Shown: in pieces, positions 857-45,843 of the stretch
Layout of the letters: each line of letters starts with the position of its first letter
Numbering within the stretch: the first letter of the stretch is position 1
Virus record (IMG/VR): IMGVR_UViG_3300009011_000008
Span: 1 to 46,362 of that record
From: a virus
Strand: one strand, 5' to 3'
DNA length: 46,362 nt
The notes under the pieces: generated by a model
Told to the model about the DNA's origin: nothing
The model's database searches: none
Seen by the model: the letters and a program-made list of their open reading frames with translations, nothing else
Made by a program: the position numbers and the translations under genes

Positions 857-870
857 TTCTCTATAGTAAA
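857..870. promoter_or_regulatory. Operator copy 1 (TTCTCTATAGTAAA)
   Basis: 14-bp imperfect palindrome matching the recurring consensus TTYRCTATAGYRAA. It overlaps the -10 element (TACTAT, minus strand, 868-863) of the leftward promoter for the gene starting at 835. It lies 27 bp from copy 2, about 2.5 helical turns. Repressor or Cro binding is inferred from position and repetition. Confidence 0.7.
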
Positions 871-890
871 CTAAATTATAATATTTGCAA
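863..890 (-). promoter_or_regulatory. Leftward early promoter for the membrane-anchored HTH gene
   Basis: Read on the minus strand: TTGCAA (890-885), 16 bp, TACTAT (868-863). The -35 box is the same six bases used by the rightward promoter, so RNA polymerase could not occupy both at once. Confidence 0.6.
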
Positions 891-897
891 TAGTGAA
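884..897. promoter_or_regulatory. Operator copy 2 (TTTGCAATAGTGAA)
   Basis: Second operator of the divergent control region. It covers TTGCAA at 885-890, which is its own reverse complement and can serve as -35 box for both the rightward and the leftward promoter. A dimer bound here could shut off both directions. Confidence 0.7.
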
Positions 898-913
898 TTT
901 AATATTTTATTAT
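885..913 (+). promoter_or_regulatory. Rightward early promoter for the Cro-like gene
   Basis: TTGCAA (885-890), 17 bp, TATTAT (908-913), which is close to sigma70 consensus. The ATG at 936 follows with the strong ribosome site AGGAGG at 925-930. Confidence 0.7.
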
Positions 914-935
914 GTAGGCAATACAGGAGGGTCGT

Positions 936-1127
936 ATGGACTGGAAACAAATTGTTAATGATGTGTTAGAGCATCAAAAATTTACTCAAGCATCATTATC
1001 AGAAAAGACGGGGATTTCTAAATCTTATATATGTGAGCTTAAAAACGGAAAGCGCAAGTCGCCATCTTTCGAAATGGGATTGACTTTAGTTAAGCTACAT
1101 CCCAATAAGAAAGAACTTCTCAAATAG
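936..1127 (+). CDS. Cro/C1-type HTH regulator (63 aa)
   Basis: Small XRE-family DNA-binding protein. The helix-turn-helix is at about residues 16-40 (FTQASLSEKTGISKSYICEL), followed by the KNGKRKSPS wing region typical of Cro/C1 folds. It has no extra dimerisation or peptidase domain, so it is Cro-like rather than LexA/CI-like. The start has an AGGAGG site five bases upstream. It is the first gene of the rightward transcript and ends in a terminator, so it forms its own short unit. It is the best candidate in the genome for the protein that binds the dispersed 14-bp palindromes, two of which flank its promoter. That link is inference. Confidence 0.88.
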   Translation: MDWKQIVNDVLEHQKFTQASLSEKTGISKSYICELKNGKRKSPSFEMGLTLVKLHPNKKELLK

Positions 1128-1147
1128 CCCGTTAATTCGGGTTTTTA
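1127..1147 (+). terminator. Terminator after the Cro-like gene
   Basis: CCCG, loop TTAATT, CGGG, then TTTTT, beginning directly at the stop codon. Confidence 0.75.
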
Positions 1148-1160
1148 ATTATCTAATAAA

Positions 1161-1174
1161 TTCGCTATTGCAAA
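1161..1174. promoter_or_regulatory. Operator copy 3 with promoter
   Basis: TTCGCTATTGCAAA matches the operator consensus. It overlaps a possible -35 TTGCAA (1168-1173), with AACAAT 17 bp downstream (1191-1196) as a weak -10. It precedes the early operon that starts at 1225. Confidence 0.6.
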
Positions 1175-1224
1175 TTAATTTAAGATATGGAACAATTGGT
1201 TTAATTTTTAGGGAGTAAGTGAAA

Positions 1225-1476
1225 ATGCCAAAAGCAGATCGTGGATTTGAAATATTTGCATCTAAACTAAATGACAGAGATGATCGACTTCCAAAAGGCC
1301 GAAGCCGTTGTTTTGATATTGGGATGTGTGGTGGATGTGGCGCAACTTGTGCAGCATTTGTTGATGGTGAGTGCGATGTTCCAGAAGAAATTCCATTACT
1401 TTATTTAATCGAAGTTCATGGTAAAGAAGATGCGCAATCAATTATAGAATTATATCCAGAAGGAACTTTTAAATGA
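1225..1476 (+). CDS. Cysteine-rich small protein (83 aa)
   Basis: Not recognised. Five cysteines cluster at residues 29-47 in the order C-x5-C-x2-C-x3-C-x7-C (CFDIGMCGGCGATC and a later GEC), suggesting a metal site. ATG 1225 is preferred over GTG 1219 because the GGGAG at 1211-1215 is then nine bases away. First gene of a tightly packed early operon. The stop overlaps the next start (ATGA). Confidence 0.75.
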   Translation: MPKADRGFEIFASKLNDRDDRLPKGRSRCFDIGMCGGCGATCAAFVDGECDVPEEIPLLYLIEVHGKEDAQSIIELYPEGTFK

Positions 1477-1796
1477 ATGATTGGGATGTGCTGAAAGCTC
1501 GTTATGGTAGCAATAGACAATACAAAAATAGAAACATATCTATTTTTAATAGCCAGATGGAAGAATTTCAAAATTTCCTTATAGATAATGGATACGACAT
1601 TTTGACAGAAAAAAATCAAGATGAAATTTTCAGATTTAGAAAGGGTAGAAAAATCGGCATTGTTTACGAAAAAAGATCTGGGAATCTATTAGCTCATAAC
1701 ATGGCTGCTGAGTTCCATAGATCAATAGGTCAAGACAGTATGGAGCTTTATTTAAAAGATCAGTATTACGCACAATTTAAGGAGCAATCAAAATGA
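1473..1796 (+). CDS. Hypothetical early protein (107 aa), tandem paralogue of the gene at 1985
   Basis: Function unknown. Its C-terminal 70 residues resemble the product of 1985-2209: both have an EEF-x2-FLI helix, a basic stretch with an aromatic, a Y-x-x-R-x-G/T turn and a final L-x-L/F-x-K. This suggests a tandem duplication. The start overlaps the previous stop by ATGA. Confidence 0.72.
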   Translation: MNDWDVLKARYGSNRQYKNRNISIFNSQMEEFQNFLIDNGYDILTEKNQDEIFRFRKGRKIGIVYEKRSGNLLAHNMAAEFHRSIGQDSMELYLKDQYYAQFKEQSK

Positions 1797-1981
1797 CACT
1801 GTCTATTGAACAAATTAATAATGAAGCAACGCATATCGGCGAATTTTATATCTATAAATTTGAAAATGGAATTTGGCATAAAGCTGAATCGGATTTTGGA
1901 TACATTGGCGGATATGGTTTTCAATGGGTGGAATGTGACAGACCATATGAAAATACTTCTGTAATAGCTGATAAGGAATAA
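1793..1981 (+). CDS. Hypothetical early protein (62 aa)
   Basis: Not recognised. Short acidic protein rich in aromatics (IWHKAESDFGYIGGYGFQWVEC). It overlaps the previous gene by ATGA and is followed after three bases by the next start, so it is translated as part of the operon. Confidence 0.65.
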   Translation: MTLSIEQINNEATHIGEFYIYKFENGIWHKAESDFGYIGGYGFQWVECDRPYENTSVIADKE

Positions 1982-1984
1982 AAA

Positions 1985-2209
1985 ATGAAACGGGCATTGC
2001 TACACAAATCCAAGCTAGAAGAATTTAAATCATTCTTAATTAAAGAGCAATTTCAATATCGAAGTGGTAAAGGTGATTTCCAAGTATTGCAAGTTGAAGT
2101 TCGCGGCGTTTGGTATCCGATTTATTCTCGACTTACTGGCGACCATTTTACGACTGAACAGGGTTTAATTCCATTGGTTCGATTATTTATTAAGGGGCAA
2201 GTGAAATGA
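1985..2209 (+). CDS. Hypothetical early protein (74 aa), paralogue of the gene at 1473
   Basis: Basic small protein with the same EEF-x2-FLI opening and Y-S-R-L-T-G-D-H-F-T-T turn as the C-terminal half of the 1473 gene. Function unknown. The stop overlaps the next start. Confidence 0.7.
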   Translation: MKRALLHKSKLEEFKSFLIKEQFQYRSGKGDFQVLQVEVRGVWYPIYSRLTGDHFTTEQGLIPLVRLFIKGQVK

Positions 2210-2394
2210 GTTGGCTTGATTTAAGCGAAGATAAAAAAATTGAAAGCGAAGAATATAAAGATTTAACAATAAAGAAAGATGAACATGGGCATTTTATGAT
2301 TAAGCAAGATGGTGCCTACATTTTCTTTGATCAAAATGATGCAAAAGTAATTATTGATTTTTTAAATGAGGCTATATATGCAAACAATAATTAA
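2206..2394 (+). CDS. Hypothetical early protein (62 aa)
   Basis: Not recognised. Charged protein, with a predicted beta-rich N-terminal half (LTIKKDEHGHFMIKQDGAYI) and a helical end. Coupled to its neighbours by an overlapping start and by a downstream start inside its last codons. Confidence 0.65.
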   Translation: MSWLDLSEDKKIESEEYKDLTIKKDEHGHFMIKQDGAYIFFDQNDAKVIIDFLNEAIYANNN

Positions 2395-2629
2395 TGACGG
2401 ATTTATGAACCCCGACCGTTTTGGCTATGCCGCTATACCTTTTAAAATTAATGGCGAGATTGAGCCTAGAAAGGATATAAGTTTATGGCGTATTCGTAGA
2501 ACCAATGCTCGAAGTATGGGTAAGCGAACATTTATGCATACCAAAGCATGTAAATCTTGTGGCTCATTCGAGAGGCGTGTTTATAACAATGAATGTTTTA
2601 ATTGTTTTAAGTTGGAGAGAAGTAAATGA
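2378..2629 (+). CDS. Zinc-ribbon small protein (83 aa)
   Basis: The C-terminal half has CKSCG and, 16 residues on, CFNC, a four-cysteine zinc knuckle. The middle is basic (LWRIRRTNARSMGKR), which would suit nucleic-acid binding. ATG 2378 is chosen over ATG 2366 because GAGG (2368-2371) sits six bases upstream. Function unknown. Confidence 0.68.
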   Translation: MQTIINDGFMNPDRFGYAAIPFKINGEIEPRKDISLWRIRRTNARSMGKRTFMHTKACKSCGSFERRVYNNECFNCFKLERSK

Positions 2630-2937
2630 CTAGTCGCAAATATAAAAAGTTAACTACAACCGCAAAGAGATTGCTTATTAAAGCTGGAATAGCTCAAAAC
2701 GATGAATTTGAATTATGGAATAACAAATGGCATCTGCAAACATTCTGCCAATCTCGTGAAGAGTCTTGGTATGATGAAATTGATCCTTGGCAATACCTAT
2801 ATCAATTAGCTGGAGAAGCATGCATTGATACAGTAGAGATAGATCATGATGGTGGATATAAAGAAATATATAAAAGAGATCCAGATTTAAGCGTAAAGGA
2901 TGCAATAAAAGTCTTTAAAGAAGCCTACATCAAATAA
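2626..2937 (+). CDS. Hypothetical early protein (103 aa), last gene of the first early operon
   Basis: Function unknown. Basic N-terminus, then a Trp-rich acidic centre (ELWNNKWHLQTF, ESWYDEIDPWQYLYQ) and a helical end. The ATG overlaps the previous stop, and a terminator begins at its own stop codon. Confidence 0.72.
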   Translation: MTSRKYKKLTTTAKRLLIKAGIAQNDEFELWNNKWHLQTFCQSREESWYDEIDPWQYLYQLAGEACIDTVEIDHDGGYKEIYKRDPDLSVKDAIKVFKEAYIK

Positions 2938-2956
2938 GCCCCTAGCGGGCTTTTTA
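2937..2956 (+). terminator. Terminator of the first rightward early operon
   Basis: AGCCC, loop CTAGC, GGGCT, then a T run. Confidence 0.75.
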
Positions 2957-2981
2957 TTTGTCTTGGATTTTAAAATTAGTG

Positions 2982-3010
2982 TTGACTAATACTAAAAATA
3001 GTACCAAAAT
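2982..3010 (+). promoter_or_regulatory. Promoter with inverted repeat before the antitoxin-like gene
   Basis: TTGACT (2982-2987), 17 bp, CAAAAT (3005-3010). The spacer contains the perfect inverted repeat TACTA-AAAA-TAGTA (2990-3003). This is unlike the genome's 14-bp operator and is a plausible autoregulatory site, since Phd/YefM antitoxins repress their own promoters. Confidence 0.5.
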
Positions 3011-3037
3011 AAGAACTACAAAGAAGGAGTGTTAAAA

Positions 3038-3235
3038 ATGTTACCGTTATTAAAATTTTCAGAAATCAAAAAAGATCCAGCCGTATTACTTGGCTGGGAT
3101 CGTCCTGTAATTATCACTCGTTATGGTGATGTGGTTGCTTATTTGGTTTCTCCACAAAAAATGGAAGAACTTTTAGAAGCAGAGAAAAAATTAAATAGCT
3201 TAACAAAAGTTAATTACCTTGAAGAACAATCTTAA
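3038..3235 (+). CDS. Phd/YefM-family antitoxin-like protein without a toxin partner (65 aa)
   Basis: The sequence has the Phd/YefM N-terminal fold: LLKFSEIKKDP, then a strand-turn-strand RPVIITRYGDVVAYLVSP, then a helical charged tail. That region in the family binds DNA as a dimer and the tail neutralises a toxin. ATG 3038 has AAGGAG (3024-3029) at eight bases, favouring it over GTG 3029. No RelE/ParE/Doc-like toxin gene lies beside it; the next gene is an antirepressor. It could neutralise a host toxin or act only as a regulator. The family call is by eye. Confidence 0.75.
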   Translation: MLPLLKFSEIKKDPAVLLGWDRPVIITRYGDVVAYLVSPQKMEELLEAEKKLNSLTKVNYLEEQS

Positions 3236-3249
3236 AAAAGGATTTCTAA

Positions 3250-3903
3250 ATGAATCAATTAATCAATTCAAATGTTAAAACAATGTCTAGTCTTGAAATT
3301 GCTGGATTAACGATGAAGCAACACCAGCATGTTAAACGTGATATTGAAAACATGTGTGAGCAACTACAAATAGATGCGTCCAATTTTGGACACACCTATT
3401 TAGACTCAATGAACCGAAAACAAACTTCATATTTGCTTGATCAAGATACAACAATGTGTCTTGTGTCTGGATATTCCGCACCACTACGCATGGCAATTAT
3501 TAAGCGGTGGAAGCAACTTGAAGAGGAATTTTATATACCTAAAACATATGGAGAGGCTTTGCAACTTTGCGCTGACCAAGCTAAGAAATTAGAACTTGCA
3601 GCGCCAAAAATTGAATTTGTTGAAAAGTATGTTGAGAGTGTCGGCAACAAAGGATTTCGTGAAGTAGCAAAACTTTTAAAAATCAAAGAGCCAAAGTTTA
3701 GAGATTTTCTAACCGACAACAAAATCATGTATCGATTAAATGGAGCTTTAATGGGTTATGCCAATCATATTGATGCTGGTCGTTTTCATGTATCCACAGG
3801 ATTGAGTCAGTCTGGTCATGCTTTCAATCAGTGCTTATTCACACCTAAAGGTGTTGAATGGATTGCTGCTGAATTGGCAAAAGAAAGTGTTCGGGGGAAA
3901 TAA
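3250..3903 (+). CDS. Rha/KilAC-type phage antirepressor or regulator (217 aa)
   Basis: The N-terminal 100 residues match the Rha (pRha) pattern: SSLEIAGLTMKQHQHVKRDIE, then YLLDQDTTMCLVSGYS and RMAIIKRWKQLEEE. The C-terminal half (KYVESVGNKGFREVAKLLKI through TPKGVEWIAAEL) is the KilAC/ANT DNA-binding domain found in phage antirepressors. Such two-domain proteins counter repressors or regulate replication genes. It sits directly upstream of the replication pair and its stop overlaps the next start (TAATG). Confidence 0.85.
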   Translation: MNQLINSNVKTMSSLEIAGLTMKQHQHVKRDIENMCEQLQIDASNFGHTYLDSMNRKQTSYLLDQDTTMCLVSGYSAPLRMAIIKRWKQLEEEFYIPKTYGEALQLCADQAKKLELAAPKIEFVEKYVESVGNKGFREVAKLLKIKEPKFRDFLTDNKIMYRLNGALMGYANHIDAGRFHVSTGLSQSGHAFNQCLFTPKGVEWIAAELAKESVRGK

Positions 3904-4724: not shown

Positions 4725-5413
4725 TTGAACAAGAATTTCCACGTAAATGGGCAATGGGTTTAATCGAAAAGATGCAAGGATATTTCGGGGCACGTTTTGA
4801 TAACACATACCCTAAGCGAAATGGCATGTCTGACGAGCAATACATGGAAAATTTAATTTCTACTTGTTGCGAGATTATGGAGGGCATGACACCTGATCAT
4901 ATTAAATTTGGATTGCAAACTATGCGTACTGCAAAATTCTGTCCTGTGTTTACAGAATTTCGTGAATGGTGTGAGGATTATGTGAAGCAATCATATAAGC
5001 CTAAAACGGCTGCTCTAGCCAATATTAACGCTTGGATGGGTGATTCATCGGTTTTAATCACAAACGCCGAGAGAGAGGCTTACAATCGCGTTTACGACAT
5101 GTTTAATCAGCTACAGTGGGCCAACAACTACGAGAAGGCAAAATATTACGCTTTTGAATCGTTCAAAGAGACTTATACAGAAGTTGTAAAAGAGTTAATT
5201 AAGAAAGGTGAATTGCAATCTATTTGGATTGAGCCACCAAAGATTGAAAGCCGTCCAGTCGTTAGGGTTATCAAAAAAGATTATTTGAAGATATTAACCC
5301 CTGAAGACCGCAAGAATCTAGAAAATACTGAAGCGAAAGTAAAAGAACTTGTTGCGTCTGGAATGTCACATTCATCTGCAATTTTAGAAGTTTTAAGAGG
5401 TAATCAGAAATGA
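4721..5413 (+). CDS. Lambda P-like replication protein, probable helicase loader (230 aa)
   Basis: N-terminal region FPRKWAMGLIEKMQGYFGARF followed by helical segments and FCPVFTEFREWCED resembles the P-type loaders that follow O/DUF1376 proteins. No Walker motif is visible, so it would recruit the host DnaB helicase rather than unwind DNA itself. No phage helicase gene is seen in the window, which fits. The start overlaps the O-like stop. Confidence 0.75.
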   Translation: MIEQEFPRKWAMGLIEKMQGYFGARFDNTYPKRNGMSDEQYMENLISTCCEIMEGMTPDHIKFGLQTMRTAKFCPVFTEFREWCEDYVKQSYKPKTAALANINAWMGDSSVLITNAEREAYNRVYDMFNQLQWANNYEKAKYYAFESFKETYTEVVKELIKKGELQSIWIEPPKIESRPVVRVIKKDYLKILTPEDRKNLENTEAKVKELVASGMSHSSAILEVLRGNQK

Positions 5414-5583: not shown

Positions 5584-5597
5584 TTTAAAAATTATGC

Positions 5598-5625
5598 TTG
5601 CAATTAAATCTAAATAGTTTACTAT
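5598..5625 (+). promoter_or_regulatory. Early promoter
   Basis: TTGCAA (5598-5603), 16 bp, TACTAT (5620-5625). The -10 lies inside operator copy 4. It drives the block from 5660 to RusA. Confidence 0.6.
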
Positions 5626-5631
5626 AGCGAA
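5618..5631. promoter_or_regulatory. Operator copy 4 (TTTACTATAGCGAA)
   Basis: Identical to copy 5 at 8603-8616. It overlaps the -10 box, so binding would repress. Confidence 0.7.
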
Positions 5632-5689
5632 TATAAAGTGGTTAAACGGGAAGTGAGTTATGAGTTAATTAATTAGTGGTGAAGATGCT

Positions 5690-6016
5690 TTGCGGGCTTT
5701 AGCGAGTGGGGAAAGGGTTGAGTGGTCTGATGTAGACTTTAATGGGTGGAGAATTGTAGATGGTGATACAAGAGTTGGTATTTTTGATGATAATTATACA
5801 TTTAGAATTAAGCCAAAAACCATAAAACTTGAATTTGAAATTCCTCCTCCTTTTGAGCCGAAGATTGGTGAGGAAGTTTGGTTTATTTCTGATGATCATG
5901 GTTGTGGTTATTCACGTTATGAACATGGAGAACATTCAACATATGTTTTTGGATGTTGGCGTACTGAAGAGGAAATTAAGCAAGTCGTAGCAGCTTTGCG
6001 GAGTATTAAAAAATGA
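5690..6016 (+). CDS. Small early protein of the 'ISGEDAL' type (108 aa from TTG); apparent original start closed by an ochre codon
   Basis: The open part runs from TTG 5690. Upstream in the same frame are GCT, GAT, GAA, GGT, AGT, ATT, TTA, then TAA (5666-5668), AGT and ATG 5660, which has a GGGAAGTGAG leader. Read through, the N-terminus is M-S-stop-L-I-S-G-E-D-A-L-R-A-L, close to a common phage opening where the third residue is usually Glu. A GAA-to-TAA change would explain it. Residues from TTG on (SGERVEWSDVDFNGWRIVD) match that small-protein family. Translation may restart at ATT 5672 or TTG 5690. Function unknown. Confidence 0.6.
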   Translation: MRALASGERVEWSDVDFNGWRIVDGDTRVGIFDDNYTFRIKPKTIKLEFEIPPPFEPKIGEEVWFISDDHGCGYSRYEHGEHSTYVFGCWRTEEEIKQVVAALRSIKK

Positions 6017-6759
6017 ACCTACTAGAAAGAATAGATCAATTGCAAGCTGGTCGGAATGATGTTTATACAGGCGTTAAAGAAAAACAAGGATTGCGAGATA
6101 AGCTTAACGATGAAATGGAAGCTTACTTAAAGCGTGGTGGAAAGGTTAAGCAAATACCTGCGGGGTATAGCTCATATCGTGATGGCAAGGTTCCTATGCG
6201 TGGTGTTACGAGAGGGCCTAAAGAAAAGATTGCTTATGATCCATCTATTCAAGAAACGCCTGATGAAGTGATTGAGGCAAGAAATAAGATTATACGGAAG
6301 AGCAAGCCTATTGAGATTGAAAAAGGTCCTCGTAAAAGTGCAAATTATCTAAAAAAGATTGAGTATCAGAGTAAGTACTTGAAAGAAATTTCAAAAAAAT
6401 TTGGTCCAAATGACAAGAAGCGGCTTTGCGAAATGGTCGGAATCTCAACCAAAACATTTGAAAATATAAAATGCGGAGATGGTGGATTAAATGAATCAAA
6501 CTGGAAAGTTCTTTTGATGTGTATTGATGGTTTTGAGTTTACTCAAAAAGTTAAAAAACCTAGATATACAAGGTCTACAGATCCTGAGGTTTTGAGAAGA
6601 CATAGGGTTAAAGAATCAAGATTTCTGGCAATAGCTGCAGGCGAAAAAAAGTTTAATGCTGAGTGCATGTATCATGGCGAAGTGGTTTATGTGATGGATG
6701 GTGGTAATAGAGCTAGATGTTCAATATGTAGAGCTAAATCACGTAAAAAAACAACATGA
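6013..6759 (+). CDS. Putative DNA-binding regulator with C-terminal zinc ribbon (248 aa)
   Basis: Not assigned to a named family. The middle (about 134-158, KKRLCEMVGISTKTFENIK) reads as a helix-turn-helix, and the region around it is very basic. The C-terminus has C-M-Y-H-G, then after about 14 residues R-C-S-I-C-R-A, a Cys/His zinc ribbon. Such layout suggests a transcription regulator, perhaps for later genes. It overlaps the previous gene by ATGA. Confidence 0.7.
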   Translation: MNLLERIDQLQAGRNDVYTGVKEKQGLRDKLNDEMEAYLKRGGKVKQIPAGYSSYRDGKVPMRGVTRGPKEKIAYDPSIQETPDEVIEARNKIIRKSKPIEIEKGPRKSANYLKKIEYQSKYLKEISKKFGPNDKKRLCEMVGISTKTFENIKCGDGGLNESNWKVLLMCIDGFEFTQKVKKPRYTRSTDPEVLRRHRVKESRFLAIAAGEKKFNAECMYHGEVVYVMDGGNRARCSICRAKSRKKTT

Positions 6760-6776
6760 AAGATATTGAGGTAAAA

Positions 6777-6941
6777 ATGAATCTAAAGCTAATGCGTGAC
6801 AAGATAAATGGTTCTGAGCCACTAGTAGATGGCGAAACTAAAGAGATGTTAATTGAGCAGTGGAAAGAATTGCATGCTCAGTTAGAAAGTGAAAAATTGA
6901 AAGATGAACGTAATTATATTTTGTGTGAGGAAGTGAAATGA
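6777..6941 (+). CDS. Small helical early protein (54 aa)
   Basis: Charged helical protein of unknown function (LMRDKINGSEPLVDGETKEM). ATG 6777 has GAGG five bases upstream and is preferred. ATG 6756 overlaps the previous stop and would add seven residues. It overlaps the next gene by ATGA. Confidence 0.6.
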   Translation: MNLKLMRDKINGSEPLVDGETKEMLIEQWKELHAQLESEKLKDERNYILCEEVK

Positions 6942-8264: not shown

Positions 8265-8346
8265 TATCCTGTGGCGAAATTGGTAGACGCAGCGCCTAAT
8301 TAGGTGCCGCTATTGCAGCGTTTTGGTTCGAATCCAGACGGGAGAA
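8265..8346 (+). tRNA. Class II tRNA(Leu)-like gene with a shortened anticodon loop; possible pseudo-tRNA
   Basis: TGGCGAAATTGGTAGACGC (8272-8290) is a typical leucine-tRNA D arm. CGCT-ATTGC-AGCG is a long variable arm (class II). TTTGG-TTCGAAT-CCAGA is the T arm, and TATCCTG pairs with CGGGAGA (one A-G mismatch) as acceptor. The anticodon stem GCGCC/GGTGC leaves only six bases, TAATTA, so no normal seven-base loop or Leu anticodon can be placed. CCA is not encoded. It may be decayed, or one base may be missing from the assembly. Confidence 0.6.
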
Positions 8347-8581: not shown

Positions 8582-8610
8582 TTGCATTACTTATAAATAT
8601 GATTTACTAT
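8582..8610 (+). promoter_or_regulatory. Early promoter
   Basis: TTGCAT (8582-8587), 17 bp, TACTAT (8605-8610), directly after the terminator. Its -10 lies within operator copy 5. It serves the block 8679-10877. Confidence 0.62.
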
Positions 8611-8616
8611 AGCGAA
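8603..8616. promoter_or_regulatory. Operator copy 5 (TTTACTATAGCGAA)
   Basis: Identical to copy 4, including several flanking bases (AATATA follows both). Confidence 0.7.
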
Positions 8617-15371: not shown

Positions 15372-15385
15372 TTTGCTATTGCGAA
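15372..15385. promoter_or_regulatory. Operator copy 6 (TTTGCTATTGCGAA)
   Basis: Matches the operator consensus. It lies over the -35 box of the promoter that opens the 15433-18707 cargo block. Confidence 0.68.
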
Positions 15386-15432: not shown

Positions 15433-16125
15433 ATGAACTGTGAAAAATTACATAATGCACTGGCATTAAAAGATCAAGAAATTAAAGAGCGCAAAGAAAA
15501 TACAATCCGTTGCTTTGAGATTGTTAAAGCTTGGGCGCTTGATAAGGTTGTTGAGGGGACAATTAAAAATGAATTTAAATCATCAGTTTGTCTTTATGAA
15601 GGTGAAGTTTATGGTTATTTATTAAAAGAAATAGGGGTGGATGTTTCTAATTTGCATTATGATATCTCTTGGTCTCTATATAGTCGAGATAAGGCAAACA
15701 TTAACTATACTGGCTATTATATTGGAAAGATGTTTCTAGGTATTGATGAGAAAAATGAAGAATATCGCAAACACATTATAGAAAGCAGAAGCAAGGAAAT
15801 TGAGCAATATGAAAATTTAGACAAATTTAAACAAAGATTTGATTGTTCTCTGTTCTGGAATTTAATTGACAATCATATTTTAAGACACGGATTTAAGACA
15901 GAGGTTATAAAAAACATATGGGGTCAAAGAGTTGTTAGAAATGGTTGCTATATAACAACCAGAAGTAAGTTGGAAAAGGCTTGCTGCCCTGCTGGTAAAA
16001 AAGAATCACCACAATATCGAGTAGATGGTGAGCCAAACATGACAGCGCAATATATTTTTGCAATTTCCATTATCGTAGTGATATTTGCTATTGCAGCATT
16101 ATTTATTTTTGGAGGCTTGAAATGA
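15433..16125 (+). CDS. Tail-anchored membrane protein, cargo gene (230 aa)
   Basis: Not recognised. ATG 15433 has GGGAG nine bases upstream. Residues 1-190 are soluble and charged with several cysteines (including ACCPAGKKE near 190). The last 26 residues are one hydrophobic span (TAQYIFAISIIVVIFAIAAL). First gene of a block with its own operator-controlled promoter inside the structural region. An envelope-linked host-modifying role is plausible but unproven. Confidence 0.75.
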   Translation: MNCEKLHNALALKDQEIKERKENTIRCFEIVKAWALDKVVEGTIKNEFKSSVCLYEGEVYGYLLKEIGVDVSNLHYDISWSLYSRDKANINYTGYYIGKMFLGIDEKNEEYRKHIIESRSKEIEQYENLDKFKQRFDCSLFWNLIDNHILRHGFKTEVIKNIWGQRVVRNGCYITTRSKLEKACCPAGKKESPQYRVDGEPNMTAQYIFAISIIVVIFAIAALFIFGGLK

Positions 16126-23151: not shown

Positions 23152-23165
23152 TTTACTAAAGCGAA
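23152..23165. promoter_or_regulatory. Operator copy 7 (TTTACTAAAGCGAA)
   Basis: Matches the operator consensus with one central change. It covers the -35 of the promoter for the second cargo block. Confidence 0.6.
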
Positions 23166-23180
23166 CCCATCTGTTATGAT
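23152..23180 (+). promoter_or_regulatory. Promoter of the second cargo block
   Basis: TTTACT (23152-23157), 17 bp, TATGAT (23175-23180). The -10 lies in the loop side of a CCCATC/GATGGG hairpin that also looks like a terminator for upstream late transcripts. Confidence 0.5.
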
Positions 23181-23192: not shown

Positions 23193-23207
23193 ATAGGAGA
23201 AGTGGAA

Positions 23208-23561
23208 ATGATTTATAGAAATATGTTTACTATTCAAGTAAACAATAACCCTGTGTTTTTTGGTGGAAGTAAAAACGGTGATGAAAAGCCATATGGGCAA
23301 GCGGATGCAACAAATGACTACCTTGTTTTGGAGAATGGGGAAAAGTACAAGTACAAAAGATATCAAGTTAAATTTGGAGAGTTATTTAAGTTTATTTACT
23401 TAGCATTGGTTTTAGATGAAGAAATTAATAATCACGAAAGTGCGATTACAAGTGATTTTAAAAATCGTGTAGAAACCACAAAAAAGGAAATAAACTATAT
23501 TTCAAATATCTTGAATGCAGAAAGCTCTAGCAATATACAAGTGCAAGGTGATTTTAGTTAA
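23208..23561 (+). CDS. Hypothetical cargo protein (117 aa)
   Basis: ATG 23208 has AGGAGA seven bases upstream. Product: N-terminal beta region (MFTIQVNNNPVFFGGSKNGD), a KYKYKRYQVKF basic strand, a hydrophobic helix and a polar C-terminus (SSNIQVQGDFS). Not recognised. It is bracketed by two hairpins with the same CCCATC/GATGGG stem and has its own operator-promoter, so it is a self-contained insert between neck genes. Confidence 0.7.
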   Translation: MIYRNMFTIQVNNNPVFFGGSKNGDEKPYGQADATNDYLVLENGEKYKYKRYQVKFGELFKFIYLALVLDEEINNHESAITSDFKNRVETTKKEINYISNILNAESSSNIQVQGDFS

Positions 23562-31019: not shown

Positions 31020-31048
31020 TTGCATTTACTGTAGCGAATTGATATAGT
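31020..31048 (+). promoter_or_regulatory. Promoter of the third cargo gene
   Basis: TTGCAT (31020-31025), 17 bp, TATAGT (31043-31048), with operator copy 8 in the spacer. Located just after the plug gene. Confidence 0.62.
31025..31038. promoter_or_regulatory. Operator copy 8 (TTTACTGTAGCGAA)
   Basis: One base off copies 4 and 5. It sits between the -35 and -10 boxes. Confidence 0.68.
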
Positions 31049-31077: not shown

Positions 31078-31512
31078 ATGAAATTAGCTTTATTGGTTTA
31101 TTTAGCAAATATATCTCATGGCGTCTCTGCTATTTTAGGTTTTTTTGCATTACTAACATTTTCTTTTGTACTTATGGCTGGACTTTTTGTTTTAATTTCT
31201 GTAAAAGATTTTGAGTTTTTAAATAAAAAACATAAATCTTATTCATGGGAAAGTGAAGATGAGATTAAAGAACATAATGAACAAGTTCCAAAAAATAGAA
31301 AGCTATTCAAAAGATTAATGATTTCATTATCAATTGTATGTTTCTTGTCTGGATTAATTTCAATACTAATCCCATCTGAAAAAACGATTTACATTATGGC
31401 GGGTGCTTATGCTATAGAGCAAATAGCAACTAATGATAGAGTTCAAAAAATTGGATCTGATGTTCTTGAAGTTATCGAAAATAAGCTAGAAAAGCTAAAA
31501 GAAGATAAATAA
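31078..31512 (+). CDS. Three-span membrane protein, cargo gene (144 aa)
   Basis: Hydrophobic spans at about residues 2-16, 18-40 and 80-100, a charged central loop (KKHKSYSWESEDEIKEHNEQ) and a cytoplasmic tail after IPSEKTIYIMAGAYAIEQIA. That segment is familiar from uncharacterised phage membrane proteins. Own promoter and operator upstream, terminator downstream, inside the baseplate cluster. Superinfection or host-envelope roles are possible but unproven. Confidence 0.75.
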   Translation: MKLALLVYLANISHGVSAILGFFALLTFSFVLMAGLFVLISVKDFEFLNKKHKSYSWESEDEIKEHNEQVPKNRKLFKRLMISLSIVCFLSGLISILIPSEKTIYIMAGAYAIEQIATNDRVQKIGSDVLEVIENKLEKLKEDK

Positions 31513-38257: not shown

Positions 38258-38263
38258 CAATTT

Positions 38264-40992: not shown

Positions 40993-41191
40993 ATTTCGGC
41001 GGTTCGTACTTTGTCCAGTGTGTTACTGGTGGATCATCACCACTACAACAACCACAGCCATGCGATGGCAGTGTTATTGGTTCAAATCCCATTCTAGTTG
41101 AATAGCTGCATTCTATTGCCGACTGATCAATAAAAGCTAAAACATACTCGCCATCAACTGGCAATTCATCCTCAACACTAATCCATTTCAT
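40991..41191 (-). CDS. DUF551-type small protein, second copy (66 aa)
   Basis: MKWISVEDELPVDGEYVLAF ... PPVTHWTKYEPPK, the DUF551 layout as at 9314-9490, with an extra GCGCCSGDD cysteine cluster. Last gene of the leftward operon; it overlaps the gene before it. Confidence 0.78.
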   Translation of the reverse strand: MKWISVEDELPVDGEYVLAFIDQSAIECSYSTRMGFEPITLPSHGCGCCSGDDPPVTHWTKYEPPK

Positions 41192-41394
41192 TTCTTAATC
41201 TCCTGAATTGCAAAAGCGCCAAATTTATTACATGCATCGTTATAACCAGCTTTATAAAATGCATAAAAACAACGCCAATGCTTATCTACCACTTCATCTT
41301 CAAACTTAAACATTAACTTTTCATCTGGCTGATGCTTAACATTTGAAGCATCTACACCAAGAAAGCCTAGAGATTTGATAAAATTATCAAGCAC
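41188..41394 (-). CDS. Hypothetical early protein (68 aa)
   Basis: GTG 41394 is chosen because GAGG lies nine bases upstream; TTG 41409 is possible. C-terminal helical part with RCFYAFYKAGYNDACNKFG. It overlaps the HNH gene's end by eight bases. Function unknown. Confidence 0.6.
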   Translation of the reverse strand: MLDNFIKSLGFLGVDASNVKHQPDEKLMFKFEDEVVDKHWRCFYAFYKAGYNDACNKFGAFAIQEIKK

Positions 41395-42181
41395 GGCAAT
41401 TTTCCTCAATTGATTTAATTACACTTGCATAAGCTGGGTCTGATTCTTTTATGAATGTATTGCCAACCCTCTTGAAATCTCTTTTTAACCTAAATCTAAC
41501 TCCCGAATCTGTTATATTTAAGATTTTAGAGTAATCTTCAACACTAATCTTTTTACCCTCATGTATGATAAATACGTTAGTTCGTCTATTATTGGCTTGT
41601 TGCTTTGCGGTTTGCCATCTGCAGTTTTCTTTAAAATAACCCTTAGAGTTATCAATCCTGTCAATAGTCATTCCTTTTGGTCTTACACCCATATCAGACA
41701 GAAATTCCTCAAATGAATTTTTCCAACTATCACAAACCGTTATGCCAACAGCCCCATAATTGTAATAAGACTCATTATTTGTATCATAACATCTTGATTT
41801 CATCATAACCCATGTCTTATATGTTGGTGTATTCCACATTCCATGTTTTCTTTTTTTTGTTTCCTTGCTTCTCGCTGATTCACCATGCAAACAACCACAG
41901 CTTTTTTTATAACCAAAATTTAATATTGCTGTCTTTGCTGAAGTTTTGTTTCCACAATCGCAAATACAATCCCATGTTATAGATCCTTTTTCCTGAACCT
42001 TTGATTTACCAACAACCGTTAATTTTGTAAATTTCATTCCTAGTAGGTTTTTCCCTCTGCCTTTTAACTCACCGCCACACTCCTTTAGATACATTGACTT
42101 TCTTTTGCATAATACTGAACAATATTTACTATCAATCCTCTTTGGATTAAATTCAATGTTGCAAATAATACAATTTTTCAT
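41387..42181 (-). CDS. HNH homing endonuclease (264 aa)
   Basis: Free-standing homing endonuclease: N-terminal zinc ribbon (CIICNIEF ... YCSVLCKRK), a GMKFTKLTVVGKS strand with CICDCGNKTS and KSCGCLHG, then the HNH region (TYKTWVMMKSRCY, VGITVCDSW, MTIDRIDNSKGYFKENCRW), and a C-terminal helical DNA-binding tail. It lies between the MazG-like gene and a small gene. Its ribosome site is held in a hairpin (42187-42226), a control known from other phage homing enzymes. Confidence 0.9.
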   Translation of the reverse strand: MKNCIICNIEFNPKRIDSKYCSVLCKRKSMYLKECGGELKGRGKNLLGMKFTKLTVVGKSKVQEKGSITWDCICDCGNKTSAKTAILNFGYKKSCGCLHGESARSKETKKRKHGMWNTPTYKTWVMMKSRCYDTNNESYYNYGAVGITVCDSWKNSFEEFLSDMGVRPKGMTIDRIDNSKGYFKENCRWQTAKQQANNRRTNVFIIHEGKKISVEDYSKILNITDSGVRFRLKRDFKRVGNTFIKESDPAYASVIKSIEENCRA

Positions 42182-42186
42182 AATAA

Positions 42187-42226
42187 AGCTCCGTGTTCTG
42201 TTATAACTATAACAATAAACGGAGCT
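42187..42226 (-). promoter_or_regulatory. Hairpin hiding the ribosome site of the HNH gene
   Basis: AGCTCCGT (42187-42194) pairs with ACGGAGCT (42219-42226), and inside it GTTATA (42200-42205) pairs with TATAAC (42208-42213). On the leftward mRNA the GGAG before ATG 42181 lies in the 3' arm and would be blocked when folded. Confidence 0.7.
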
Positions 42227-42773
42227 AAATGCTATATTGGTTAAAGTTATTTTCTAATGATTTCTCAAACATAGATTTAACCTCATTGTAATTTTCATCT
42301 GTATTTTTCACAAAAACACCATTCCATAAAATCCCAACCCTATCTTTAATATCTTCATATGCAATTTGTACGCATTCTTCCAAAGTAAAGCCATTTTGCA
42401 GTGCAATTGATTGCAATAAACATACAGCCATAGAAAGCGCTTCTTGCTCTTTTTCATACTCAAGATGGCGTGCTACTGCAAAAATTACAAGATTTTCACA
42501 AAGTTCAACTACGGTTTCTTTTAGATTGTAACCCTTTCCACATATTGCTAAATGATCTTCAATTGAATGCCCATGTTGTGCAGTCATGATAGTCAATACT
42601 ACAAACACATCACCAATATCATCACGACAATCACGCCCTTTACCAACATTATCCGCAAGCTCACCAAATTCACTAAACAGCTTCATAGCTTGATCAATTG
42701 GCTTTGATCCTTTAATGATATTTCGATCTTCTGCCCATTGTTCAACTTTACAAATTAATTCATTTAAGTTCAT
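42225..42773 (-). CDS. MazG-like nucleotide pyrophosphohydrolase (182 aa)
   Basis: ATG 42773 (GGAAG upstream) is preferred over 42788. EFGELADNVGKGRDCRDDIGD carries the E-x2-E (35, 38) and D-x2-D (52, 55) pattern of all-alpha NTP pyrophosphatases. MazG-type enzymes hydrolyse NTPs, and phage versions may lower alarmone levels or dUTP. The C-terminal 80 residues repeat a similar helical pattern without the metal residues. Substrate unknown. Confidence 0.8.
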   Translation of the reverse strand: MNLNELICKVEQWAEDRNIIKGSKPIDQAMKLFSEFGELADNVGKGRDCRDDIGDVFVVLTIMTAQHGHSIEDHLAICGKGYNLKETVVELCENLVIFAVARHLEYEKEQEALSMAVCLLQSIALQNGFTLEECVQIAYEDIKDRVGILWNGVFVKNTDENYNEVKSMFEKSLENNFNQYSI

Positions 42774-42775
42774 GT

Positions 42776-42934
42776 TTACTTCCACCATTGTTTTTCACGA
42801 ATAGGATTAAATTTACGTTGATCGTCTGTTTTGCGTTGCTGGTATTTTTTACGCTTAATTGATTCTGTGATATATATTGAAGCAATTAAACCCAAAGCAA
42901 GCACGAAAATTAAAAGAATGTGCACTACATTCAT
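42776..42934 (-). CDS. 52-aa single-span membrane protein
   Basis: ATG 42934 behind GAGGA. The product has one hydrophobic helix (MNVVHILLIFVLALGLIASI) and a basic tail (KRKKYQQRKTDDQRK) ending EKQWWK. The next gene's ribosome site falls in its last codons. Function unknown. Confidence 0.6.
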   Translation of the reverse strand: MNVVHILLIFVLALGLIASIYITESIKRKKYQQRKTDDQRKFNPIREKQWWK

Positions 42935-42936
42935 TT

Positions 42937-43113
42937 CTATTCCTCAAGTTTTAAATTATATCTAATTCCTAATGGAACGTTTTTAGAACACCAATCATTA
43001 GCCAATTTTAAGTCTTTTACAACTATGTCTAATTGTGTTCCAAAATAACTAAACTCATATGATACATACCATGTAGTTTCTCTTATCATAAAGAGAAATT
43101 CTCTTCTTTTCAC
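42937..43113 (-). CDS. Hypothetical early protein (58 aa)
   Basis: GTG 43113 overlaps the previous stop (GTGA) with GGAG eight bases upstream. Contains RETTWYVSYEFSYFG and LKLANDWCSKNVPLG. Unknown. Confidence 0.6.
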   Translation of the reverse strand: MKRREFLFMIRETTWYVSYEFSYFGTQLDIVVKDLKLANDWCSKNVPLGIRYNLKLEE

Positions 43114-43310
43114 TTTGGGCGCTCCTCTAAAGAATCTTTCCAATTACAATTCGGAGTGTGCAAATCAAGCTCAACAAAAACATTTGAACACCATGAATAA
43201 TCATCAAATGCAATAGGCACATCTTCAAATCCAAAGATTTCAAATGTTGAATCCATGGCAATCCAATTTACCCAACTGGGAACAACACTCCAATCATATT
43301 TAGTTTTCAC
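43110..43310 (-). CDS. Hypothetical protein with W-x2-SL-x2-RP end (66 aa), paralogue of the gene at 7495
   Basis: GTG 43310 behind GGGAG and overlapping the previous stop. WIAMDSTFEIFGFEDVP ... NWKDSLEERPK is the same end domain as in 7495-7875 (YVAMDADKRWHGY ... DWKQSLRKRPE). Function unknown. Confidence 0.66.
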   Translation of the reverse strand: MKTKYDWSVVPSWVNWIAMDSTFEIFGFEDVPIAFDDYSWCSNVFVELDLHTPNCNWKDSLEERPK

Positions 43311-43600
43311 TTCATCAACTCCCTATAAGAACTTTGTCGCAATTTCTTTATTTCAATTTCACCTTGCTTGGTCAAATCTTCAATAAAAGAAATACCATTG
43401 TTAAACCACTGCTTTAGAAATAATGCATAACGTTCACAGCAATAATCATTCATGTCTAAATAATCATTATTTGATAGCATGATCTTTGCAATTTTTCCGT
43501 TACGCTTCATGATTACATTCTTGCCTTTGCCGCCTAGTGAATGACTGCCATTAGTCATCCACACCACAAAAGGAAACATTAAGCTTTCTTTGATTTGCAT
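43307..43600 (-). CDS. Hypothetical early protein (97 aa)
   Basis: ATG 43600 with GGAG eight bases upstream. Basic centre (GKGKNVIMKRNGKIAKIML) and an acidic-aromatic helical part (YLDMNDYCCERYALFLKQWF). Lies in the recombination operon downstream of the exonuclease and overlaps it. Function unknown. Confidence 0.65.
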   Translation of the reverse strand: MQIKESLMFPFVVWMTNGSHSLGGKGKNVIMKRNGKIAKIMLSNNDYLDMNDYCCERYALFLKQWFNNGISFIEDLTKQGEIEIKKLRQSSYRELMK

Positions 43601-44265
43601 GTTATCTGCTCCATAACATAATTTTCGCACAATGATAGTCGTGCAAGCATTTGTTGCTCTTTCTCATCGTCACGCTCAATACGCAACGATGAAACTCTAA
43701 AACCTAGTGGTACATCTTGCATAAAGTGCCAATGTTCAGGATCTTTCTTTGAGATTAGATCGTGTGGCGTATCAACCAAAACATAAGCCAATTCAGCGTT
43801 ATTTACATCATACAAATACATGTATGCTCTTAACTGCCACTCATACAGCTTTGAAATTTTCAAGTTAAATGGATATGTTTTTTTGCTATAAGCTGTCTTT
43901 ATGTCAATTACCAGACTATTAGCTTTATCTAAAATATCGCACTCACCTGTTAATACTGGTTGAGTTTTATCAAAAACCAACCCTGTATCATGGTCAATGA
44001 TTAATCCTGTACTTACATCCTTGTAAATTCGTTCAACATTTTTTACATAAAACGAATCATTAACCTCATTGTAAATTTCAATGCTTTCATTTTCACAAAT
44101 CTTGCCTTTTTCTGTAGTGAAGAAGTCAAGTTCTGCATCTTGCCACTTGATTAACTTTTGGCTAACCATTTTGTCTAGTTCGGTTATTGCACCATCTGGC
44201 AACTTATTTTTGTCTGGATAAGACATCAAGTTACCAACAGATGAAGCACGAAATACTACGCTCAT
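43579..44265 (-). CDS. PD-(D/E)XK exonuclease, YqaJ/lambda Exo-like (228 aa)
   Basis: Nuclease core TGECDILDKANSLVIDIKTAYS gives Asp ... Asp-x-Lys of the PD-(D/E)XK fold. The N-terminal FRASSVGNLMSYPDKNKLPDG and the following KLYEWQLRAYMYLYD helix match phage recombination exonucleases that digest one strand from ends. It overlaps the ERF gene by ATGA, forming an exonuclease-annealing pair. Confidence 0.85.
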   Translation of the reverse strand: MSVVFRASSVGNLMSYPDKNKLPDGAITELDKMVSQKLIKWQDAELDFFTTEKGKICENESIEIYNEVNDSFYVKNVERIYKDVSTGLIIDHDTGLVFDKTQPVLTGECDILDKANSLVIDIKTAYSKKTYPFNLKISKLYEWQLRAYMYLYDVNNAELAYVLVDTPHDLISKKDPEHWHFMQDVPLGFRVSSLRIERDDEKEQQMLARLSLCENYVMEQITCKSKKA

Positions 44266-45020
44266 GCTTTCACCTCGCGCCCAATTTTAATTAATTGTTC
44301 TGGTGTTAAATCATATGCATCTGTAATGCTATCAACTGTGATTACACCAGCATTAACCTGTTCAATAGCTTTTGTTAATCGAACATCTGATAAAGGTTTT
44401 TTACTTGATTCAACTTTTGCATTTACAGCAAATCCATCTTGATCTTCTTCAGACACGGCAATATTTAATGCTTGCATAAGAGTATAACGTCTTCCATATG
44501 TTGACCCGCTACCCATAGCTTGAATTGGTGTTTGCCCTTTAATTGTTGCAATTGGCAATTGAATTTCATTTGATTCTTCATGCCCATCACGATGCTTTAA
44601 GATACAAACAACTGTCATCATACAGAATATTGAATTTGGCTCTGTCGAGGCTCCAGCTATCATTTCTTGTTTTTGTTTATAAGTTACTGAAAAACCATAT
44701 TTATAAAGAATAGGTCGTGTAATTTCCACAACATCCTCAAGACGAGCAAACTTTGTGTTGTTAAATTTATTGTGACCCAATTTTGCAATTACTGGTATTT
44801 CCCCAAGCATCTCAGCTAAATTCAAATTAAACATCTTTTTAGCTTGACGATCTTCAGCATCATTTTGCAATTTAATCAACTTCTCAAGCGCATGAATATC
44901 AAAATTCTCACGCTGTACAAGATTGCTAATCATTGACAAAACTTGAACTGGATTTGAAGAAGCATCATTGTTTTCAATTACTGAAACATTGCCTTCTTTA
45001 ATTACTGTTAAATTGCTCAT
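44262..45020 (-). CDS. erf: ERF-family single-strand annealing protein (252 aa)
   Basis: ERF pattern: ALEKLIKLQNDAEDRQAKKMFNLNLAEM, FARLEDVVEITRPILYKYGFS and QAMGSGSTYGRRYTLMQALNI, followed by EEDQDGF and a C-terminal helical tail. Anneals single-stranded ends made by the adjacent exonuclease, for genome circularisation or concatemer formation. Confidence 0.92.
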   Translation of the reverse strand: MSNLTVIKEGNVSVIENNDASSNPVQVLSMISNLVQRENFDIHALEKLIKLQNDAEDRQAKKMFNLNLAEMLGEIPVIAKLGHNKFNNTKFARLEDVVEITRPILYKYGFSVTYKQKQEMIAGASTEPNSIFCMMTVVCILKHRDGHEESNEIQLPIATIKGQTPIQAMGSGSTYGRRYTLMQALNIAVSEEDQDGFAVNAKVESSKKPLSDVRLTKAIEQVNAGVITVDSITDAYDLTPEQLIKIGREVKA

Positions 45021-45023
45021 ATT

Positions 45024-45266
45024 TTACCCTTCCAATAAATCTTCTTTAATCTTTGTTAGTCTGTCGATTGTTTCATTCATATATCGAGTTCTAAATTGTT
45101 CAGAATATTCATTGCTCAACCACAATTGAATACTATCCGAGCCGCGACCAACATACTGAACTTTTAACCAGCTAAAGCTACGCTCAATGATGGTTTTTGA
45201 ATTTGATAAACTAATTAATTCAGCAACCAATGTTTCAATGTTTTGCTTTAATGTTTCAATGCTCAT
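45024..45266 (-). CDS. Hypothetical coiled-coil protein (80 aa)
   Basis: Helical ends (MSIETLKQNIETLVAELISL) around a small beta part (SWLKVQYVGRGSDSIQLWLS). Directly upstream of erf, with four bases between. It overlaps the membrane gene before it. Function unknown; may modulate recombination. Confidence 0.65.
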   Translation of the reverse strand: MSIETLKQNIETLVAELISLSNSKTIIERSFSWLKVQYVGRGSDSIQLWLSNEYSEQFRTRYMNETIDRLTKIKEDLLEG

Positions 45267-45474
45267 TTAATAAATCCTCAATCATCATTGCTGCTAAAAA
45301 TAAACATGAAACTTGAATAATTCCATTAGCCGCATAATACAAGCCGCCACCACTAGCAACCATCACAGCATTAAAAACAAAAAAACTAAAACACCACACC
45401 CAATATATTGATAAAAACATTGCGCTTTTAAGCTTATGTTTCATAATTTCTATTCTTAATTCCTCAATACTCAT
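45256..45474 (-). CDS. Two-span membrane protein (72 aa)
   Basis: Hydrophobic spans at about residues 18-38 and 44-64. Its start shares a base with the previous gene's stop. With the lipoprotein it forms an envelope pair at the head of the leftward early operon. Function unknown. Confidence 0.68.
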   Translation of the reverse strand: MSIEELRIEIMKHKLKSAMFLSIYWVWCFSFFVFNAVMVASGGGLYYAANGIIQVSCLFLAAMMIEDLLNEH

Positions 45475-45809
45475 TACATGTTCTCCGCAACTTCTTTTTC
45501 GATTAAATCAACAATGCTTGAAACTTCTTCACTTGGTAAAACATATTTATCTGTTTCACCATCTTCGTTGAATACTTTTACTTCTTTAACTTGGCTGATC
45601 TCAAAGTCATTCCAAGATTGAAAGCCATTACCATTTTTAAAATGACGAGCGTCAAATTCAACCTCTAAAACCAAATCACCAGACTTAATAGCTGCCACAT
45701 CATTTTGTAAGTCTACCGACTCAATTTCATAAGGCCCTTGAATAACTGGTGTGTGATTTGCACATGCTGCCATTGCCAAAGCTCCGATTAAAATCAATGT
45801 ATTTTTCAT
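45474..45809 (-). CDS. Lipoprotein, first gene of the leftward early operon (111 aa)
   Basis: Signal peptide MKNTLILIGALAMAAC with lipobox MAAC (Cys 16), next residue Ala, suggesting outer-membrane sorting. The mature part is acidic and beta-rich (YEIESVDLQNDVAAIKSGDL, VKVFNEDGETDKYVLPSEE). It is the first product of the strong operator-controlled promoter at 45864-45836, so it is made early. A superinfection-exclusion role like other phage lipoproteins is possible, not shown. Confidence 0.8.
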   Translation of the reverse strand: MKNTLILIGALAMAACANHTPVIQGPYEIESVDLQNDVAAIKSGDLVLEVEFDARHFKNGNGFQSWNDFEISQVKEVKVFNEDGETDKYVLPSEEVSSIVDLIEKEVAENM

Positions 45810-45829
45810 ATCTATTCCCCTTATCTATA

Positions 45830-45843
45830 TTCGCTATAGTAAA
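45830..45843. promoter_or_regulatory. Operator copy 9 (TTCGCTATAGTAAA)
   Basis: Reverse complement of the copy 4/5 type. It covers the -10 box of the leftward promoter. Confidence 0.7.

Follow-up and report, generated by a model that had tools for sequence, protein, structure and literature searches.

Phages in which one repressor acts at many dispersed operators are a known kind of system. For the mycobacteriophages L5 and D29, one repressor is described with related dispersed stoperators that are mostly intergenic and are kept in the lytic relative D29 (PMC5712189, PMC9283540). The Obolenskviruses are presented as strictly virulent phages in which no integrase was found and repressor- and antirepressor-like regulators have been noted (PMC10888812), and a published map of IME-AB2 has promoters marked (PMC4094691). 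In phi29, the membrane protein p16.7 takes part in phage DNA replication and is described as working with the terminal protein and displaced strands (PMC4974454). Here, we analyze a 46,362-nucleotide (nt) stretch of viral DNA, positions 1 to 46,362 of IMG/VR virus record IMGVR_UViG_3300009011_000008 (this whole stretch is called the window below), which is related to Obolenskvirus, a group of Acinetobacter phages, and carries nine copies of a 14-bp near-palindrome. We find it reasonably likely that a phage-encoded regulon uses the nine sites as its operators, with the dispersed set bound mainly by a predicted helix-turn-helix (HTH) protein, Reg, that represses early and cargo promoters.

Nine intergenic copies of a 14-bp element

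The window was searched with the 14-mer pattern TTYRCTATAGYRAA, allowing at most one mismatch. Nine matches were found in the 46,362 bases, at 857, 884, 1161, 5618, 8603, 15372, 23152, 31025, and 45830, the same starts that a first-pass annotation of this DNA had given for a nine-copy dispersed motif. Shuffled sequences held a mean of 0.16 matches, with nine reached in none of 100 shuffles, and a second control of 300 shuffles gave a mean of 0.28 and a maximum of 4. Three copies (5618, 8603, and 45830) are exact, and the other six carry one mismatch. At up to three mismatches the motif is at chance level (35 matches versus 36.2 expected), and scans at that setting were left out of the analysis.

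Under a hand-made gene model, by which 8.6% of the window is intergenic and 7.5% of 14-mers are wholly intergenic, all nine sites are wholly intergenic, compared with 2 of the 26 other matches at two or three mismatches. No site with at most one mismatch lies in any gene, which bears out the earlier claim that every copy falls between genes and shows that the motif is not common inside them. Because the pattern was derived from the same nine sites, two tests independent of them weigh more. One is the presence of the element at corresponding promoters of related phages, described below. In the other, the diverged 14-mer of those phages (TTTACTATTGAGAA) was used on the window and gave five matches at up to two mismatches, all among the nine sites; at up to three mismatches, 8 of 17 matches were among them.

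Sites on promoter-like sequences

Promoters were scored with textbook sigma70 hexamer weights. At each of the nine sites, the top-scoring promoter found within 50 bases overlaps it, in agreement with the first-pass placement of the copies on or beside sigma70-like boxes. Two of the sites lie between the divergent reg and cro genes. OP1 (857 to 870, minus strand) contains the -10 hexamer TACTAT of the Reg promoter (863 to 890, minus strand), and OP2 (884 to 897, plus strand) contains TTGCAA, a self-complementary hexamer that is the -35 of both the Reg promoter and the divergent Cro promoter (885 to 913, plus strand). The two operators are spaced 13 to 14 bases apart and cover both promoters, as in a lambda-type immunity region.

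The remaining seven sites are dispersed. Like OP1, operator A (45830 to 45843, minus strand), at the start of the leftward arm, lies over a -10 (TTGACA-17-TACTAT, 45836 to 45864), as does operator B (5618 to 5631, plus strand; TTGCAA-16-TACTAT, 5598 to 5625). Operator C (8603 to 8616, plus strand) lies over the -10 TACTAT in the second-ranked reading, the top-ranked one overlapping the site by one base. Over a -35, as at OP2, are operator D (1161 to 1174, plus strand), upstream of the rightward early operon with the -35 TTGCAA and a weak -10, AACAAT; operator E (15372 to 15385, plus strand; TTGCGA-17-TACTAT), which lies between head genes and serves a gene at 15433 to 16125; and a site in a cargo slot between head and neck genes (23152 to 23165, plus strand; TTTACT-17-TATGAT, 23152 to 23180). 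The ninth site (31025 to 31038, plus strand) is in the spacer, touching the -35 (TTGCAT-17-TATAGT, 31020 to 31048), in a cargo slot between the tape measure and baseplate hub genes, where it serves 31078 to 31512. Promoter scores run from 5.6 to 11.1 at the sites, compared with a median of 5.2 at random intergenic 14-mers. Four of the top five intergenic promoter-like places carry a site (45830, 884, 31025, and 23152); the second best, at 2982 to 3010, does not.

A diverged form of the element in related phages

Sixteen related records were chosen for diversity from similarity-search matches (98, 75, and 76 records); 15 are labelled Obolenskvirus, and RM_A2 is labelled "Viruses" only. At up to one mismatch, TTTACTATTGAGAA, which differs by two bases from the main form in the window (TTTACTATAGCGAA), occurs at 96 sites in these genomes (87 exact and 9 with one mismatch), with five to seven sites in each of the 16. 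Four IMG/VR records (G001 to G004) hold five to seven exact copies each. At two mismatches, the matches in the relatives include OP sites and one adjoining the B site of Brutus; the rest look coding.

Ordered by landmark genes, class A sites precede the leftward arm, class D sites follow cro, class B sites precede the g5690 group, class C sites precede the packaging genes, and class E sites separate the head morphogenesis and protease genes; further sites are in one or two cargo slots, either after the neck gene or between the tape measure and the hub. Classes A and E are present in all 16 relatives, D and B in 15 each, and C and the cargo slots in 14 each; the class scan skipped two sites near record ends, at position 25 of AP22 and of Arbor, and class C reaches 16 of 16 when these are added. 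The sites of the window cover A, D, B, C, E, and the tape-measure/hub slot. The element is thus present at largely the same promoters in relatives, although its sequence has changed. Given that the sites are intergenic and overlap promoter-like cores, and that all 16 relatives examined have a diverged form, the genome-wide network proposed in the first-pass annotation, serving both arms and the cargo genes, is well supported.

The position of the site within the promoter was compared by class. It lies over the -10 in class A (in one register in 14 of 16 relatives) and in class B (15 of 15), and it is the -35 in the frame TTTACT in class D (15 of 15) and in the frame TTGAGA in class E (16 of 16, the same register as at 15372). 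In the cargo class, the site is reversed in the spacer of TTGCAT-17-TATAAT at 16 of 17 places, with TTGTAT at one, and 31025 shares this register. Orientation is not fixed, the site being reversed both at these cargo slots and at 1161.

These registers bear on whether the element is an operator at all or instead serves as a conserved portion of the promoter or as a linker for recombination between modules (terminator-plus-promoter cassettes). Promoter hexamers are always found within the element, the cargo genes at the same slots differ between phages, and a terminator-like hairpin lies within 110 bases before three of the nine window sites, compared with 84 of 3,000 random positions, genic ones included. 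Nevertheless, one 14-mer is kept whole across several -35/-10 registers, once reversed, so promoter function alone is an insufficient explanation. The two site classes also differ in bases outside the hexamers, and one element could serve as both linker and operator. We therefore regard a promoter part or linker in place of an operator as very improbable.

We consider it just as improbable that a host regulator binds the dispersed sites, given that the phage sites differ between the window and its relatives and that two phage HTH proteins are encoded in 16 of 16 relatives. A search of bacterial genomes with the DNA pattern returned 71 loci, ten of them Acinetobacter loci in one context, and none of the 71 matches Reg, Cro, or the window landmarks at an E value of 1e-3. 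What speaks for a host protein is a near match, TTTACTATTGCGAATATA, conserved in one intergenic place of the ten Acinetobacter loci (L142:4475-4559 and nine others). In L142, the one locus inspected, it lies between genes that we read as arsR-like and arsC-like, and the place looks like one inherited host promoter.

A pattern search of viral contigs returned six loci. Four were dropped because they have a single context in common, which resembles coding sequence. The other two (L087 and L088, IMG/VR sample 3300011236) are fragments with the window-type site at positions A and C; L087 matches landmark proteins and L088 shares the class C context only, and both apparently come from a close relative of the window. 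A literature text search with three forms of the 14-mer gave no match, a result that holds for the searched library and makes no claim about other publications.

Two classes of sites and their candidate proteins

The half-site TTCGC is carried by all seven dispersed sites and by neither OP site, and a single class of nine sites was given up for two classes, the OP pair (857 and 884) and the seven dispersed sites. Two candidate binding proteins flank the OP pair: Reg and the Cro-like protein P0002 (936 to 1127, plus strand), a small Cro/CI-type HTH protein that scores above Pfam cut-offs. Among the relatives, the recognition helix of Cro comes in three types (AP22-type in 13, Cato-type in 2, and IMEAB2-type in 1), and the OP pair is constant within a Cro type and different between types. 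All 16 relatives share the dispersed 14-mer and the Reg segment KSRPY[IV]AKMLNQPQ; in the window, the Reg helix (KSRQYIGKMLRLPQ) and the dispersed half-site both differ from those of the relatives. Since the OP pair varies with the Cro type and the dispersed 14-mer stays constant with the Reg HTH, Reg is the better candidate for the dispersed sites, and these comparisons make it fairly likely to be their main binder. We infer that the OP pair is bound by the Cro-like protein and probably by Reg as well.

Alternatively, the Cro-like protein alone might bind all nine sites, with Reg acting otherwise, in anchoring or replication. The frame TTnnCTA is common to both site classes, and Cro lies above Pfam cut-offs where the Pfam match of Reg lies below its own. 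However, the dispersed 14-mer is unchanged across the three Cro helix forms, and the Reg helix is unchanged along with it, so that binding of all nine sites by Cro alone seems unlikely. Cro-like relatives were found at two loci in viral contigs as partial 50% matches, and the records concerned hold zero and one place with an Obolensk-type pattern.

Reg and Cro are also the two recognized HTH proteins among seven non-virion window proteins with homologues in 16 of 16 relatives. The other five are possible binders. Four of them (2366 to 2629, 6756 to 6941, 41188 to 41409, and 43307 to 43630) have no Pfam match. The fifth (45474 to 45809, minus strand), the first gene of the leftward arm, matches only the unnamed PHROG phrog_9193, and each of the 16 relatives has a homologue of it behind the class A site.

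Reg, a predicted membrane-anchored regulator

Positions 1 to 123 of the window repeat positions 46240 to 46362, and the contig is therefore complete and circular at about 46.2 kb. The gene for Reg (P0001) runs across the circle junction. Its larger part (1 to 835, minus strand) encodes an N-terminal alpha/beta domain, the predicted HTH (residues about 73 to 139), and a coiled coil; the last residues and the putative C-terminal hydrophobic anchor are encoded at the other contig end (46205 to 46362, minus strand). In Reg and its homologues, the N-terminal region varies strongly and the HTH hardly at all; all have a coiled coil, and a hydrophobic stretch lies at the C terminus. By hydropathy, this stretch is single in 17 of 17 Reg proteins, with a 19-residue mean of 1.92 in the window and 2.61 to 2.76 in the relatives and values of at most 0.93 outside the last 45 residues. 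In the relatives, it is preceded by KSKIKRER. Reg is thus likely, on prediction, to be membrane anchored, and an anchor at its C terminus would point to the inner membrane as its place of action.

The N-terminal 70 residues of the Reg homologues comprise several very different regions set on the nearly invariant HTH. One type (AP22, IME284, and XC1) looks replaced, and AB1 reads without that region from the first ATG used. No clear match to the N-terminal domain was found among solved structures. Its variability suggests a fast-changing partner.

Models of Reg consist of an alpha/beta domain, the HTH, and a long helix, with mean predicted local distance difference test (pLDDT) values of 73 and 81. 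Residues 73 to 139 of the model align to POU-specific, Aca, and C-protein domains with Z scores of 5 to 6.7 over 54 to 88 residues (root mean square deviation, 2.3 to 6.4), which is below the top coiled-coil rows (Z score, 7.0) and below the safe level of the tool; Foldseek matches have E values above 0.1. On balance, these comparisons lean toward a five-helix fold of the lambda-repressor-like kind for the HTH. Relatives of Reg were not found in plasmids at an E value of 1e-3, in viral contigs with a single-sequence query, or in bacterial genomes with an alignment query. The alignment query identified ten loci in viral contigs.

A membrane anchor also raises the question as to whether the sites serve for anchoring or partition, with Reg tying the circle to the membrane and the promoter overlap being a by-product or second function. 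KorB of RK2 has both a partition and a promoter role. The putative C-terminal anchor and the coiled coil of the Reg proteins, the spread of the sites round the circle, and a weak HTH_ParB match would all fit. On the other side, no match to the ParA-type ATPase family PF13614 was found in the window, and the sites sit on promoter cores in kept registers; overall, anchoring or partition is an improbable account of the sites. Reg was rejected as a ParB/KorB-type partition protein, its HTH_ParB match being below the cut-off and no PF13614 match having been found in the window.

Exchangeable genes behind the sites

Two cargo families are found behind sites in different slots. The gene at 15433 to 16125 (plus strand; 230 amino acids; no family found) lies behind operator E in the window, and its homologues occupy the neck-sheath slot in BP10, Scipio, Brutus, AB1, and Acb75. 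In all five of these relatives, the only ones of the 16 to have it, the homologue is behind a site, 26 bases before the matched region; two of the five sites carry one mismatch. The gene at 31078 to 31512 (plus strand; 144 amino acids), behind the 31025 operator in the tape-measure/hub slot, has one homologue, in the neck-sheath slot of AP22, and this too lies behind a site. The operator-promoter slots thus take up exchangeable genes.

Among 30 window proteins scanned, PHROGs names include terminase, protease, neck, baseplate hub, Erf, exonuclease, MazG-like, and endolysin, and the first half of the window matches 98 phage records, every one from Acinetobacter. No match to the tyrosine (PF00589) or serine (PF00239) integrase families was found in the window; in control genomes, these were detected in 14 of 14 and 10 of 14, respectively. 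A tRNA-like structure at 8265 to 8346 was called by ARAGORN, with the anticodon undetermined. The strong promoter-like site at 2982 to 3010 (TTGACT-17-CAAAAT), which carries no operator, is ahead of a small gene (3029 to 3235) with a subthreshold match to the Phd/YefM antitoxin. The product of 6013 to 6759 has no homologue in the 16 relatives; its N-terminal part scores above the Pfam cut-off against the RNA-polymerase-binding domain of SutA, and the product is possibly a transcription modulator. A marginal PADLOC match of this protein to Cas5c (E value, 0.00078) was taken as chance, and PADLOC gave nothing else on nine window proteins and one AP22 protein.

A different element in phiAC-1

The more distant phage phiAC-1 (L083) has the gene plan of the window without the motif: TTYRCTATAGYRAA occurs at one place with one mismatch and TTTACTATTGAGAA at two places with two mismatches. 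A looser pattern gave 10 candidate places versus 2 for a reversed control. PhiAC-1 has its own promoter-like element, GTTGC...TTTATA...TATA with an inner inverted repeat, in seven copies (4578, 6581, 8450, 15012, 30042, 40141, and 41634), two of which occupy, by landmarks, the head-protease and tape-measure-hub slots. All 16 relatives have a homologue of the gene that follows the 4578 copy, and in 13 of them it is directly behind an Obolensk site. Eight relatives have a homologue of the gene that follows the 8450 copy, and in three it is behind a site. The genes behind the other five copies have no homologues in the relatives at an E value of 1e-3.

The 41634 copy lies upstream of gp80 (phiAC-1, 41690 to 42412; 240 residues), a protein without a Pfam match whose C-terminal hydrophobic stretch has a 19-residue mean of 3.14. 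Its resemblance to the Reg HTH is weak (tblastn E value, 0.12; profile comparison E value, 0.016, but with a probability of 2.9%). Possibly, gp80 is a Reg protein that has diverged and acts on an operator of its own, as would be expected of a regulon with fixed slots in which regulator and site change together. The phiAC-1 element may also be only a strong promoter.

Discussion

Taken together, these data make it highly probable that the nine sites form an operator regulon. It seems that one phage-made switch protein, perhaps tied to the membrane, controls the early and cargo promoters together. Repression, as implied by the term "repressor" in the first-pass annotation, is inferred from the position of the sites and is the likely effect of binding. 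A dimer bound over the -10, the -35, or the spacer would keep RNA polymerase off the early and cargo promoters. A protein on 884 would cover TTGCAA, the -35 of both divergent promoters, and one on 857 would cover the -10 of reg only; together the two would make a switch. The confidence that we express in the regulon, its binder, the anchor, and repression is in each case a judgement.

Several observations weigh against this interpretation. Of 1,500 random intergenic 14-mers, 704 overlap the best promoter nearby, which makes promoter overlap alone modest evidence, and 10 of the 18 promoter-like places that score at least 7 are without a site. The promoter at 1161 is weak (5.6, near the random median), and this site is in another register than its class D counterparts, which are present in 15 of 16 relatives. 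Class C registers in the relatives are ambiguous, with the scoring favoring a -35 frame in 12 of 14 scored sites. The site at 23152 has no counterpart at that slot in the 16 relatives, and the homologue of the cargo gene at 23202 to 23561 (cargo23), present only in IME284, has no site upstream. With respect to Reg, the anchor is a hydropathy prediction, the structural matches of the HTH to lambda-repressor-like domains are modest, and the HTH_ParB match reaches 18 bits, under the cut-off of 22.6. As for the assignment of proteins to sites, linkage could explain why cro and the OP pair, which are neighbors, vary together. Because the 16 relatives are close kin, the unchanged Reg and site count as few independent events, and the window is the only clear second Reg/site state.

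With no integrase found in these phages, the regulon would more likely time or damp early genes, or let a resident phage control incoming siblings, than keep classical integrated lysogeny. A broader model, which we offer as speculative and rather doubtful, is that in these phages, supposed to be strictly virulent, a membrane-tethered HTH protein bound to the dispersed operators both represses the early and cargo promoters and collects the phage circle at the inner membrane. The outcome would be a carrier-like state without integration, or immunity toward siblings, for which the fast-changing N-terminal domain would supply the input. Across the wider group, the slots would be fixed, and regulator and operator would be swapped together, giving three pairs: those of Obolenskvirus, of the window, and of phiAC-1, where gp80 would go with the seven-copy element.

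Acinetobacter baumannii is a target against which Obolenskviruses are studied. With a conserved operator regulon, they would retain what looks like a functional switch, one that might damp early genes or shut out sibling phages, and this matters for mixtures of phages. Now that a candidate regulator, its sites, and the controlled genes have been named, the question of immunity without an integrase can be put to the test. The cargo genes in operator-bearing slots offer an example of a phage placing new genes under existing control, and a C-terminal membrane anchor on a phage operator-binding protein, if true, would be unusual. A literature search on membrane-bound phage regulators, regulatory cassettes, and P1 C1 returned nothing useful.

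The region around reg and cro resembles lambda CI/Cro in its divergent repressor-like HTH and Cro-like genes with operators between them. It differs from lambda in having seven more operators outside the region and two operators between the genes, and no integrase was found. P1 C1 likewise has many operators of one repressor at separate promoters. The P1 C1 sites are asymmetric and unrelated in sequence, and P1 is a plasmid prophage with partition genes, unlike the window, in which PF13614 has no match. As with phi29 p16.7, Reg would be a phage-encoded membrane protein contacting phage DNA, although p16.7 is described as working with the terminal protein and displaced strands, whereas the candidate action of Reg is on promoter operators. 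L5 and D29 share with this phage related sites across the genome that are mainly intergenic, here with one candidate phage regulator. Unlike in L5 and D29, the sites here are near-palindromes on promoter cores, their orientation is not fixed, and the candidate protein carries a predicted membrane anchor.

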